A stretch of 64,000 bases of DNA from Gonapodya sp. JEL0774 (taxonomy: Eukaryota > Monoblepharomycota > Monoblepharidomycetes > Monoblepharidales > Gonapodyaceae), in contig JADIIX010000045.1 in the NCBI GenBank assembly GCA_027604505.1, forward strand, positions 62,001 to 126,000, given 5' to 3'. This document shows, piece after piece, positions 41,642-46,137 of this stretch; the stretch's first letter is position 1; the number at the start of each line of letters is the position of its first letter. The notes under the pieces were generated by a model. That model was not told the DNA's origin. It worked only from the letters and a program-made list of their open reading frames with translations, and searched no databases. Made by a program: the position numbers and the translations under genes.

Positions 41642-44600
41642 ATGACTAGCAATTCATCCGGACATGACGGGGTCCCCACGGCCAATTTCCCCCCCCCTAA
41701 AATTGAATCGGTCGCGAGAACATCCTCCAACGCTTCATTTGACCCCACAAGATCCCTGAGCAGTCGGACTTACGATTGGCAGTCGAAACCGGAGCATGTG
41801 GAAGTACACAAGGCGGAAGTTCTTGGCTGGGGTGGCTATGGCATTGTTTACAAAGGAATTTGGAGATTTGGTAAAGTTCCAGTGTGAGTTTGTTGGATAC
41901 GACGACAAAGGCGAGCGATCAGGAATCTCTGGATCCTTTTCTCCACACCTTCGTGATTGATCCTACGTGCACGTGCATTTTCATCGGCATGACGGGAACA
42001 ATTGTGGATGTTGGACAAACAGTTGCGACAGCCCTCTCACTGAAACCTCTCTGATTTGAAATTTCAGTGCCGTTAAATGTCTGAAACGAGGCGATGAATT
42101 TGATGAAGAGGTAAGATTGTGGAACTGCCCCGCACTTCAACGTCCAGGATAGAGACAATGTCCCGGGTCACCAGGAATTTCTCCACGAGGTTTCGGTATG
42201 GTGGCGTCTCAAACATCTGAACATTCTACCCTTGTTTGGGGCGTGCATGGACGCTGGAGCGCTGGGGGCATTCATGTTTTCGCCGATGATGCCAAACGGC
42301 ACAATCATGCAATATCTCAGAAGCAACCCGAATGCGAACACAAGGGCGACAAAGTTGAGACTACTCTACGATGTGTGCTCTGGGCTGGATTATCTTCATG
42401 AGAGCTCTATAATACACACAGGTGAGGGTCAAAGTTGGGTGGGGCACTTCAATAATTGAAATCGACGACTCGTATCTTTATCTTCACGGCGCAGACCTTA
42501 AACCCAACAATATTCTTGTCGACTCAACTGGCCGGGCTGTTGTCATGGACTTTGGCTTCGCCAAGAACAAGGACGTTCAGACTTCGGGGACCCGGATTGG
42601 GACGGGACCTTATATGGGGCCAGAGCGCCTCTCCCTTTGGCTAAACAACCAAAAAGTCAGTCACGCTGTTTCGACAAAGGAGGGGGACATGTGAGATTCT
42701 TGTGAGCTCGTCGTCCTTTCTTTGGTTGTAATCCACTTCCTTCGTTGTCAGTTACGCTTGGGCAATATCCTGCTACGAGGTGAGTCACCCCTGATGTACT
42801 AACTCATGATATGAACGATTTTACTATGCTGACCCCGTTGCGTATAGATCTGGACGGCCAGCTTTCCTTACGGCAAACCTCCGAAAGACGAAGACGCACA
42901 GGTCGAGCTGTACGAGAGCATACTCCAAGGCCACCGACCGGACCTGTCGAATCCAAAGCTGCAAGACATGCCTCAAGAGCTCAAAGACATCATGGTCAAA
43001 TCGTGGGACGCCAAGCCCGAAAATCGGCCCGAGAGCTTTGATGCCATTGGGACCGTCCTGGCCGCTCTCATGTGAGTTTTTTTTTGATCGCTTGACCCTT
43101 TGGATGAGCTTCCGTCATTTAATTCATGTTACGTCAGTGAGAAGGAGCCCGAAGAGTCCTTTTTCACACCCGCAGCTCCCACCAGCAGCACCATGCAGCG
43201 GGCCACCGCAACTGACTCCGGGTTTGGATCCCCATCTCAAGTTCGGGTCAAAGACGCACAACCACCACCGAACCAGCGAGCAGCCAAGGGTTCCCTCTCG
43301 CAGGAGAAAATCGACCGTTACCAGAAGCAGGCACTGGACGTTGGATTAGTCGCACTAAACTTCCCCAAGGATGTGCGGAAAGCACTCGCAGCCCTTCAGA
43401 GCGGAGCGCAGAGTGAAATCACTCTCGAAAACAAAAATCTCGGGGATGATGGAGCGAAAGCCGTCGCAGAAGCATTACGCAGAAGCGAGACCGTCACGGC
43501 ATTAAATCTTACTGGTGAGCGAGCGCAAAAGCCCCAAATATAGGCCAGTTCATCCTCAAAGTTTTGTATTCAGGAAATCTAATCGGCGACGTTGGAGCGT
43601 GGGCGTTAGCCGATGCACTCAAAGTAAATAAATCTCTTACTACTATAAACCTCAACGGTGCGTTCATCGCTCCACTGTCTTAACGCCAACAAGTCATTGT
43701 GACAATACGATTGCCCATAGGCAACAACGTTGGAAACGATGCCGCATGGTACCTTGCATCCGTCCTCAAAACCAACAAGACACTCGAAAATTTAGGCTTA
43801 GCTAGTAGGTATCCTCTCTTCGAGCTTGTGAGAGTCATATCGGTGAGACCACCTCATACAGATAACGTCATCGGAGACACCGGTCTCCTTAGCCTATCCG
43901 AGGCCCTCAAAGTGAATTCGACCTTGCAACATATTGAACTGGGAGGTGACTATGGTCAGTCGTTGTCCGTGTTTTCGTTTATCTTACGACTAGTTCTGGC
44001 AAGGCAACCGAATTGAGGATGATGGAATTGCTGCGCTTGCCGACGCACTCAAGCAGAATAAAACACTTAATTTCTTGCTCCTTGGATTCAACGTCATTAC
44101 TGATGAAGGAATCGAGGCTATCAGTAATTCTATGAAAGTGAATGAGAGTATCAAAGGCCTTCATCTGATGGGTAGGTTGAATTGTTCTGACCATCCTGAA
44201 GAAAGTGGAACTCCTGTGCGAATTTTCCTCTTTTTATTCCAGGAACGAAAATGACAAGCGTTGGTGCCAAGACGGTAGCAGAGTTTCTGAAAGTAAACAA
44301 GGTCCTCGAATCACTCAGCCTTGGAGGAACTGACATGAACAGCGATGGTGCCGTAGAGATTGCTGAGGCTCTCCAGGTTAACTCTACACTTCAAGAACTA
44401 GCGCTGGATCACTGTGAGTTTGAAGCTTGTAGCACTGAAGATCTTGAATCATGAAAGACTCCTCTCTTGTACCCCGCAGCAAATCTTGGTAATGTCGCAC
44501 TTCGCGCTCTTACAGATGCTTTGAAGGTCAATAAGACACTTGTGGCTCTCGACCTATCGGGTAATTTCTATGCTGGGGACTCATTTTGGGCTCGACTGAA

Positions 44601-44933
44601 CACACTGATACCTTGTCTTTCCCAGCAATCAAAATCACTGAGCCTGGCGTCCTGTATCTTGCAGACGGGTTGAAGTCATGGAAGGGCCTTAAATCTTTGA
44701 TCTTGGAGAGCAACGAAATTGGTGATGTAGCCGCCAAGGCGATCGCAACGGCATTGAAAGCGAAAACAAGTAGCCTGCAGCGAATCAACTTGAAAGGTAT
44801 CGTGAACAACTGCCCAAGGCGCTTCCCTTCGTTGTTAACAGACTCCGTCCATTGTTACCTCACAGATAATCCATTCGGAGTCGCCGCAACGTGGAGCCTG
44901 TCCATGGCGAGTGATTGCACAGTTGATTGTTGA
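41642..44933 (+). CDS. TKL-like protein kinase fused to ribonuclease-inhibitor-type LRRs
   Basis: Exons 41642-41883, 42068-42110, 42175-42421, 42495-42690, 42752-42779 and 42848-43071 encode a kinase domain. It shows GWGGYGIVYKG, VPVAVKCLKRG, EFLHEV, IIHTDLKPNNILVD, MDFGFAK, GTGPYMGPERLS, DIYAWAISCYEIW and KPENRPESF. The catalytic loop is HTD instead of HRD, so it is a non-RD kinase with the catalytic Asp kept. After a disordered linker, exons 43138-43514, 43574-43657, 43721-43804, 43862-43945, 44004-44171, 44243-44413, 44480-44560, 44626-44796 and 44866-44933 encode about 11 LRRs of 28 residues (N-x-I-G-D-x-G-A-x-A-L-A-D-A-L-K-V-N-x-x-L). Every intron inside the LRR array is phase 1. There is no signal peptide or TM segment, so it is a cytoplasmic protein. 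This is a kinase followed by NLR-type repeats, with no NACHT. The ligand is unknown. Confidence 0.85.
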
Positions 44934-45253
44934 TCGGAGAAGGTTTTTATTTTGCGATTTTTGAGATGATATTCTGATCTCAAAAGAGTTAGACGAATTG
45001 GAAGCAAATATTGAATTGTTTATTAAATGTATAATTGGAACTTCAGTCGTCCCACTCCTCGACCGACACATTTTGTGAAGTCCCAGTGTGCTTTCGCCAA
45101 TAACCAGAGAGCCTGTTGTGACCACAGGTTGTGCAGTGCGTGATATATGGGCAGACAGTATATTTGTTCCACTTGTGGTACTTGCACTCCATGGTCTAAT
45201 TACACCTGGAGCGGTGTTGGCTCTGGGCTGCCGACTGATTTGCGAAACAATCA

Positions 45254-46137
45254 ATGTCAATCGACTCTGACGAGCCGCTCCCGTTCTGTTTTGTTTCCAA
45301 GTCAGACGATGGTGCGGAACATGAATCAACATCCGAAATCGTCATGGAGGCGTTTGCATCCACATCCCACGGTCGCAAGTTTTTGGTGGCGATTGATTTC
45401 ACAACTTCGGCCCTCCTGGCGCTCGATTTCGTTCTGTCACGGATTCTTCGACCCGGTGATTCCATTTTGCTTGCCCATGTGATTCCCGATGCTGCAGTCG
45501 TTGATTCGTATTGTGAGTGATGATGAGTCATGCTTCCTGCGCCATGTACAATTGGATGAACGATTCGGTCTTTGTCAGACGGTGAGCACCTGCGCCACGA
45601 AACTCGATACTTTCGAGAAGATTCGTTTTTACCCCAGCCCTCTGATTTGGTGTATAGACGATCAAACACTGGGTTCTTCAATAGTTTTCAACTCGTTGCA
45701 CGACTTCAGTCGCAAAGTCCTCAACGAGTTCAATACGGCAAAGCAAATGATCCTTGAGAGGTCACAGATATCAGAAAAAGGAAACTTGGAGGAGAAATTG
45801 AGCAAAGTTTGTGGTTTCTTCTGAACTATCATTTTGAGTGTCTGAATCAGAAATGTCCTGCAGGTGAATGCATACGGTGCAACTTTCATCGGACTCTCTG
45901 GCCCAGTTCTGTGCAATCTCTGTACTAGACTGAAGGTTGATACCATGGTAAGCAGCTGTTGAGTAGACTCCATTGCAATCGAACTTCTTCACCACCATTA
46001 CCAGTTCCTCGGAACTCATTCCCGGACCTCCATGGGCAAAATTATGTACGGGAGCGTTAGTGACTATTGTTTGCGCTATTGCTTGAACAGTAGTGTCTGC
46101 GTAGTTCGAGGGAACGTCTCTAACCATTCATCGATAT
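45254..46137 (+). CDS. Universal stress protein (UspA-like)
   Basis: At least four short exons. The first (45254-45512) carries a disordered acidic lead and the USP strand GRKFLVAIDFTTSALLALDFVLSRILRPGDSILLAHVIPD. The next starts about 45580 and, with a GT|GTATAG donor near 45655, rejoins VRKVLNEFNTAKQ. Then comes VNAYGATFIGLSGPVLCNLCTRLKVDTM, and after an intron ending at about 46010, FLGTHSRTSMGKIMYGSVSDYCLR, with the G-x(9)-G-S phosphate-binding pattern of ATP-binding USPs. These are small alpha/beta proteins that bind ATP or AMP and respond to stress. A minus-strand frame over the last exons is a shadow of them. It converges on the phosphomannose isomerase gene, about 150 bp away. Confidence 0.8.

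Follow-up and report, generated by a model that had tools for sequence, protein, structure and literature searches.

Positions 41642 to 44933 of the plus strand in a 64,000-nt stretch of DNA from Gonapodya sp. JEL0774 (contig JADIIX010000045.1; we call the whole stretch the window) carry a gene in which a protein kinase of the tyrosine kinase-like (TKL) type is followed by an array of leucine-rich repeats (LRRs), and here we describe this window gene together with a family of loci in the same genome that share its kind of repeat-bearing exon. The exon model rests on the DNA sequence: the gene was spliced by hand and the result then checked with a program. It consists of 15 exons, listed here as they stand in the spliced model, with "both methods" marking those that were also recovered by spliced alignment:

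41642..41883, plus strand: exon 1, start codon, disordered N-terminus and kinase glycine-rich loop GWGGYGIVYKG
42068..42110, plus strand: exon 2, lysine of the VAVK motif
42175..42421, plus strand: exon 3, kinase N-lobe to catalytic loop, with the first half of the HTD motif
42495..42690, plus strand: exon 4, DLKPNN, DFG and activation segment
42752..42779, plus strand: exon 5, kinase C-lobe, 28 nt
42848..43071, plus strand: exon 6, end of the kinase domain
43138..43514, plus strand: exon 7, reading in one frame through a disordered linker, the LRR cap and the first LRR; phase-1 end
43574..43657, plus strand: exon 8, one LRR, 84 nt, phase 1-1 (both methods; missing from the deposited protein)
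43721..43804, plus strand: exon 9, one LRR, 84 nt, phase 1-1 (both methods)
43862..43945, plus strand: exon 10, one LRR, 84 nt, phase 1-1 (both methods)
44004..44171, plus strand: exon 11, two LRRs, 168 nt, phase 1-1 (both methods)
44243..44413, plus strand: exon 12, two LRRs, 171 nt, phase 1-1 (both methods)
44480..44560, plus strand: exon 13, one LRR, 81 nt, phase 1-1 (both methods)
44626..44796, plus strand: exon 14, two LRRs, 171 nt, phase 1-1
44866..44933, plus strand: exon 15, C-terminal cap and stop codon

All junctions are canonical GT-AG, the frame is kept throughout, and the open product is 755 amino acids long. The six introns of the kinase part are in phases 2, 0, 1, 2, 0 and 2, and all eight introns of the LRR array (introns 7-14) are in phase 1. 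A first-pass annotation of this DNA had described a kinase-LRR fusion with an array interrupted only by phase-1 introns; the six array exons it listed are exact, and one exon of 81 nt (exon 13) is added here. The spliced-alignment program uses a circular 28-residue LRR profile in which the three phases are scored alike; because the profile derives partly from the window gene's own repeats, the program checks splice sites and phase but is no test of whether LRRs are present. It returned the same array exons as the hand model with a score of 517, exon 14 being its last exon (the best path ends at 44792, the next path at 44796), while the best score on 11 of 12 control strands was 10-18; the twelfth, the minus strand of locus C191, reached 62 and does contain a short LRR. 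The best database match is the deposited protein HDU93_007163 of Gonapodya sp. JEL0774 (92% identity over 97%), which also fuses kinase and LRRs. Its gene model contains errors: it lacks exon 43574-43657, retains the intron at 43805-43861 and reads on into the following gene, spanning window positions 41642-45520, and the downstream frame appended in this way is a weak Usp match.

In the window protein, the Pfam family PK_Tyr_Ser-Thr matches residues 56-318 with 143.1 bits (cut-off 23.1) and LRR_6 scores 95.8 bits, corresponding to a TKL-type kinase followed by 11-12 LRRs of the ribonuclease inhibitor (RI) type. The linker and the first LRR lie in one frame within exon 7, so kinase and LRRs are hard to split into two genes; together with the deposited fusion protein, this bears out the fusion. 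The motifs VAVK, HTDLKPNN and DFG are intact in the spliced protein, and no membrane span was found (the top 19-residue hydropathy is 1.66, at residue 112, inside the kinase); judged by its sequence, the gene encodes a soluble TKL-type protein kinase with its catalytic residues in place. The catalytic loop reads HTD rather than HRD, and many immune kinases lack the usual arginine at this position. We rejected this non-RD loop as a mark of immunity: arginine is absent not only from the window gene and seven other kinase-LRR loci (C274, C119, C139, C51, two at C232, and C78), but also from 8 of 13 further kinase loci that were scanned. A Pfam scan of the protein found no ROC or COR domain and no NB-ARC or NACHT domain, and the window gene is thus not a NOD-like receptor (NLR). 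In the structure predicted for the deposited protein (P0001), confidence is low for residues 333-399 and high from residue 411, with LRR blocks at pLDDT 87-98 over residues 411-700 except for 481-500, which is the retained intron; the regular strand-helix units form the horseshoe of 28-29-residue repeats expected of RI-type LRRs. Sequence matches of the window protein in the PDB include ribonuclease inhibitors and NLRPs, and the best solved-structure matches include LRRC34 and dynein regulatory complex subunit 5, both of which we take to be ciliary proteins.

The first-pass annotation proposed a genome-wide search for kinase-LRR paralogues, and such a family is indeed present. We searched the genome of this member of the class Monoblepharidomycetes (25.0 Mb in 381 contigs) with LRR and kinase queries, exon by exon, scoring only the best candidates, so that the family counts given here are lower bounds. 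Twenty-one LRR loci were analysed, and further LRR matches at C83, C347, C114, C7 and C130:48741 were left out. Of the 127 introns at these loci, 114 interrupt the repeat boundary at the same point and in phase 1, and 79 of the 106 internal exons have a length of exactly 84 nt, the exon spacing of animal NLR arrays. Introns of this kind, which together with the repeat they flank we call the cassette, occur at 18 of the 21 loci; at the other three (C137, C56 and C155, kept in the totals) none of seven introns is in phase 1 at the boundary. Phases other than 1 are recovered by the program in DNA that has them. A kinase match lies upstream on the same strand at 8 of the 18 cassette loci: C45 (the window gene), C78, C274, C119, two at C232, C51 and C139. 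At C45, C78 and C274 a deposited fusion protein or an open frame through the linker supports a single kinase-LRR gene; at C119, the two C232 loci, C51 and C139 the linkage is by order and strand alone, and the genome thus has kinase-LRR genes at three to eight loci. One relative, C274, has in one open frame a kinase, a linker and a pre-LRR segment similar to that of the window gene, followed by 16 LRR exons. Two of its exons were scored as 90 nt and look like 84-nt exons that use a GC donor instead of GT. Four of the 18 cassette arrays (C57, C130, C141 and C180:34673) have no assigned partner domain, and that at C141, which contains an in-frame stop, may be broken. Kinases of this type are numerous in the genome, with 149 exon-level PK_Tyr_Ser-Thr matches among the candidates scored, a large TKL expansion. 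In a protein search with the kinase, which reaches only relatives of similar length that share short words, the sole other kinase-LRR protein of a named fungus among the 66 proteins listed was the paralogue HDU93_009147 from the same genome; the best match from Gonapodya prolifera in that list was a kinase at 31% identity with other domains, presumably VWA. Arrays of this type of LRR, with repeats almost identical to one another and no annotated NB-ARC, were seen in three Mortierellales relatives (proteins P0126, P0129 and P0012, from Entomortierella and Linnemannia).

Cassette arrays without a kinase proved to have a different partner. At C374, C338, C180, C171 and C112 the array follows an open frame that corresponds to the C-terminal part of a fungal NLR. 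C374 encodes, in one frame within a 605-residue stretch, an NB-ARC domain (48.8 bits, P-loop GLGGVGKT) and then tetratricopeptide repeats (TPRs; TPR_10, 58.3 bits), with the LRR exons downstream; an NB-ARC domain with C-terminal repeats, the defining arrangement of an NLR, is thus found at this and other loci. A scan for NB-ARC-TPR genes gave 12 loci (14 rows, two of which are fragments). LRRs lie downstream on the same strand at six of them (C374, C338, C180:9863, C171, C191 and C112), which make up the remaining six of the 18 cassette loci, and no LRR was found within ~1.5 kb downstream of C260, C247, C233, C54 and C180:20643; the remaining locus, C380, was left out of this reading. The minus strand of C380:391-5073 carries a TKL kinase ~2.7 kb from an NB-ARC-TPR gene on that strand, possibly a kinase-headed NLR. 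Over the NB-ARC-TPR part, identity to C374 is 90% for C338, 87% for C180 and 82% for C171, and the number of internal 84-nt LRR exons is two in C338, five in C171, eight in C180 and at least seven in C374. Three deposited proteins of JEL0774 combine a nucleotide-binding domain, TPRs and LRRs: HDU93_005986 and HDU93_004230 carry PF00931, TPRs and PF13516, and the model of HDU93_002552 has lost part of its NB-ARC domain. No protein from another named fungus combined PF00931 with PF13516 among the best 120 of 1070 matches (7,997 candidates scored). In the predicted structure of HDU93_002552, the LRR part (residues 641-780) has pLDDT values of 80-97 by block, and the first Foldseek match of the model is rabbit NOD2 at a global TM-score of 0.22, a low value that reflects parts rather than the overall arrangement.

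Several of the paralogous arrays have grown recently by duplication of exon and intron together. The C274 array is a tandem repeat at the DNA level, with a 201-nt unit, 11.1 copies and an 81% match in the stretch scanned; on average, pairs of its exons are 0.81 and pairs of its introns 0.80 identical, with a best intron pair at 0.99 and shuffled sequence at 0.50. Mean intron identity within other arrays is 0.75 at C119, 0.70 at C232, 0.65 at C171, 0.64 at C180 and 0.63 at C374, and the introns of C141 are weakly alike (0.60). By comparison, introns are near shuffle level (0.50-0.51 versus 0.45-0.47) in C78, C57, C130, C139 and the window gene (0.51 versus 0.47), and no tandem repeat of cassette size was found in the last. 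These intron identities place exon-intron duplication in the recent past for several paralogues and in the distant past for the window gene. The earlier proposal that the 1-1 exon design allows repeats to be duplicated is therefore upheld in the paralogues, where exon-intron units are alike at C274, C232, C119, C180, C374 and C171, but not as a recent process in the window gene itself. Four arrays (C374, C119, C112 and C232) end within 80 nt of a contig end (p ~1e-7 for at least four of 18 by chance), which fits arrays that broke the assembly. Cassette exons of C274 and C119 are 0.63-0.65 identical to those of C180, C374 and C171, but the introns are near shuffle level between the two groups, and on this ground recent exchange of cassettes between kinases and NLRs was rejected.

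Variation among the repeats is concentrated where a ligand would be expected to bind. The concave face of an LRR horseshoe is predicted by the xxLxLxx rule, and from it we fixed a set of five codons a priori; a triple of codons (24, 26 and 27) picked after seeing the data was dropped, and the claim made here uses the five-codon set only. Among all 98,280 five-codon sets, ranked by amino-acid variability, this set is 17th in the window array, 20th in C374, 61st in C78, 93rd in C274, 256th in C171, 711th in C180, 1180th in C139, 3276th in C232 and 5446th in C119, which puts much of the variability on the face where the first-pass annotation proposed a test for diversifying selection, in the window array too. 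Introns provide a comparison for the younger arrays: divergence at first and second positions of concave codons exceeds that of introns in C274 (0.458 versus 0.154, p=1.2e-4), C232 (0.510 versus 0.292, p=0.001), C374 (0.510 versus 0.294, p=0.004) and C180 (0.389 versus 0.209, p=0.04), and it likewise exceeds divergence at third positions of other codons (p=0.005, 0.0035, 0.029 and 0.027, respectively). In C274 the last four and first two exon bases differ in 56-76% of pairs, versus ~6-22% for 20-column intron blocks. Outside the concave codons, dN/dS is 0.30-0.59 in C274, C180, C374, C171 and C119 and 0.85 in C232. Over the final seven codons of the repeat, the young exons of C274 have elevated synonymous differences alongside elevated replacement differences, a pattern not predicted by selection alone.

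We propose, with moderate confidence, that these genes are intracellular sensors with self-duplicating LRR cassettes, of which the window gene is an old member with its LRR horseshoe as recognition surface. The sensors of this set would end in the same LRR array and differ in the front part, which is either a kinase or an NB-ARC-TPR switch. The cassette would be one 28-residue repeat of 84 nt with a phase-1 intron; because it leaves the frame intact, repeats can be gained or lost through unequal crossing-over or conversion, as the young arrays show, and because the intron splits the codon of one expected concave residue, the residues brought together at each junction belong to the presumed ligand surface. 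Binding of a ligand or partner on the horseshoe would change the state of the kinase or NB-ARC domain, and this change would trigger a response to nonself. For the window gene, we assign recognition to the horseshoe and output to the kinase on the analogy of those NB-ARC-TPR genes that carry the same arrays at their ends. The sensor role suggested in the first-pass annotation gains weight from these receptor genes, in which the same cassette array follows the NB-ARC-TPR part, and may on this analysis be regarded as partly supported; nonself recognition is suggested by diversification of concave codons in the young paralogues rather than in the window gene.

Several observations weigh against this proposal. 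Youth and selection are evidenced in the paralogues only, and the window array is old and saturated. TKL kinases are so abundant in this genome that the kinase-LRR fusion may be one of many. The excess of concave divergence is not significant in C171, either relative to introns (0.430 versus 0.304, p=0.085) or relative to third positions of other codons (p=0.39); the divergence tests take alignment columns as independent and their p values are uncorrected for multiple testing, and C180, C374 and C171, which have introns in common (best pairs 0.82-0.87), are not independent of one another. Nei-Gojobori dN/dS at concave codons is near 1 and not clearly above it (0.59-1.50 in nine arrays), because synonymous differences are also raised there; dN/dS was for this reason dropped as a proof of selection in itself and the comparison with introns used instead. 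Besides selection, mutation or recombination acting locally at exon ends may contribute to this divergence.

The strongest alternative, which we consider unlikely, is that the window gene encodes an ordinary protein of signalling or scaffolding, perhaps flagellar or cytoskeletal, whose LRRs bind a fixed partner, and that only its younger relatives with duplicating arrays are sensors. This fungus makes swimming spores, the best solved-structure matches include the ciliary proteins LRRC34 and dynein regulatory complex subunit 5, and the window array is old and not expanding. Yet the occurrence of kinase-LRR proteins in listed named fungi only as the same-genome paralogue HDU93_009147 would be odd for a conserved core gene, and the a priori concave set is among the most variable in the window array too. 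An explanation without any sensing role, in which arrays expand through tandem exon-intron instability while repeat number and variability drift, would account for the high intron identity, a mark of recent neutral-looking duplication, and for the raised synonymous divergence at exon ends; we regard it as improbable, since the repeat is constrained outside the concave codons in five arrays (though less so in C232) and concave first and second positions exceed intron divergence in four of five.

It is also possible to suppose that the contigs with NB-ARC-TPR-LRR genes and some of those with kinase-LRR genes are contaminants and so uninformative about this fungus, which we likewise hold to be improbable. 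GC content at C139, C130 and C51 is lower (0.425-0.443) than in 3.5-kb chunks of the window (0.467-0.555), as is kinase GC content at third codon positions (GC3), which is 0.36 at C139 and 0.30 at C51 versus 0.54 for the window gene; these three loci represent a low-GC island or another organism, and their origin is less sure. Tetranucleotide distances exceed the window maximum of 0.245 at C374 (0.338), C180 (0.327), C191 (0.288) and C112 (0.278), and reach up to 0.595 in short stretches beside LRR-less NB-ARC loci. HDU93_004230 (P0137), whose source contig is 21,503 bases long, has no close match in the assembly searched (best 81%). Codon-usage correlations of four NLR pieces are weak (0.07-0.48); this test of contamination was dropped as too noisy. 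However, the distance is inside the window range at C338 (0.209) and just above it at C171 (0.248), and repetitive introns and short stretches may inflate it at the other loci. GC3 in the NB-ARC-TPR pieces of C374, C338, C180 and C112 is 0.52-0.56, versus 0.54 and 0.57 in two window genes, and the intron point and phase of the LRR cassette are the same as in the window gene, which sits on a 161-kb contig. The shared cassette speaks for one genome, with contamination possible. That kinase and LRRs are two genes joined by splice prediction is scarcely credible: the deposited model is visibly wrong in places, but exon 7 and the in-frame canonical junctions tie the two parts together, as does the single open frame through kinase, linker and similar pre-LRR segment in C274. 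The window gene is flanked upstream by a gene with MutS domain V and downstream, on the opposite strand, by a phosphomannose isomerase gene.

The sensor family proposed here shares features with several known systems. Like the NLR and ribonuclease inhibitor arrays of animals (NOD2, NLRP, RNH1), it has RI-type LRRs of ~28 residues, and human LRR exons that preserve the frame are described with length peaks at 69-75, 81-87, 141-147 and 168-174 nt (PMC6642158). The first-pass annotation likened the window array to those of vertebrate NLRs, and the likeness holds for the design but fails for intron phase. NOD2 splice variants printed at c.2462+7 and c.2798+158 (PMC10160418) place two introns 336 nt apart, or 4 x 84, each with a remainder of 2 on division by 3; these two printed introns are therefore in phase 2, whereas the fungal cassette intron is in phase 1 at the repeat boundary. 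Since the phases differ, an origin of the exon array shared with animal NLRs was dropped, and the likeness is probably convergent. Animal NLRs also differ in having a NACHT switch, where the genes here have NB-ARC-TPR or a kinase.

Fungal NLRs of the STAND class, whether NB-ARC-TPR or of the NWD/HNWD WD40 type, share with the Gonapodya receptors the order of NB-ARC and then TPR, and identity to proteins of ascomycetes is typically 40-50% across some two thirds of the query, but here LRR arrays come after the TPRs. The survey of 5,616 fungal NLRs by Dyrka and others describes WD, ANK and TPR repeats under positive selection, with highly conserved repeats and changes in repeat number, and reports no LRR and no chytrid NLR (PMC4986451); some NLRs in Chytridiomycota are reported in later work. 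In other publications, ANK, TPR and WD40 are said to replace LRR in fungal NLRs, with TIR-NLRs reported from Chytridiomycota (PMC9815663, a 2022 study), repeats other than LRR predominate in fungal NLRs (PMC10197012, a 2023 review), and the NBS-LRR design appeared absent from analysed fungal genomes (PMC12881547, a 2025 review).

Plant LRR receptor kinases also join kinase and LRRs in one protein, and the arginine-less catalytic loop of the window kinase is a further point of likeness, but their order is reversed (LRRs, membrane span, kinase); the window protein begins with the kinase, shows no membrane span and has RI-type repeats. Kinases of the LRRK/ROCO group likewise combine the two domains, in an order different from that of the window protein, which lacks their ROC and COR domains. 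Two metagenome proteins, probably bacterial in origin, have a kinase followed by LRRs but are distant (P0021, 28% identity over 35% of the query; P0058, 35% over 21%). In the open-licence literature searched, we found no paper on a kinase-LRR or cassette system in Gonapodya or the Monoblepharidomycetes, or on NB-ARC receptors with LRRs in early-diverging fungi.

The system described here is a variant of NLRs and of LRR kinases, with an LRR cassette common to both in a fungus. At about even odds, we would go further and suggest that fungi do have NLRs of the LRR type: in this zoosporic fungus, a single evolving LRR cassette, with an intron that interrupts a hypervariable codon on the ligand-facing side, would serve both the NB-ARC-TPR receptors and the soluble TKL kinases. 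Arrays that lengthen and diversify by duplication of exon and intron together would then give rise to germ-line-diversified recognition, assembled independently of that in animals and plants. Provided that these loci are genuine and native to the genome, fungi have the NOD-LRR architecture, and two signalling classes within one genome draw on one kind of repeat cassette. In the young arrays, the birth of a recognition surface would be traceable at the level of DNA, with introns as a built-in neutral yardstick.

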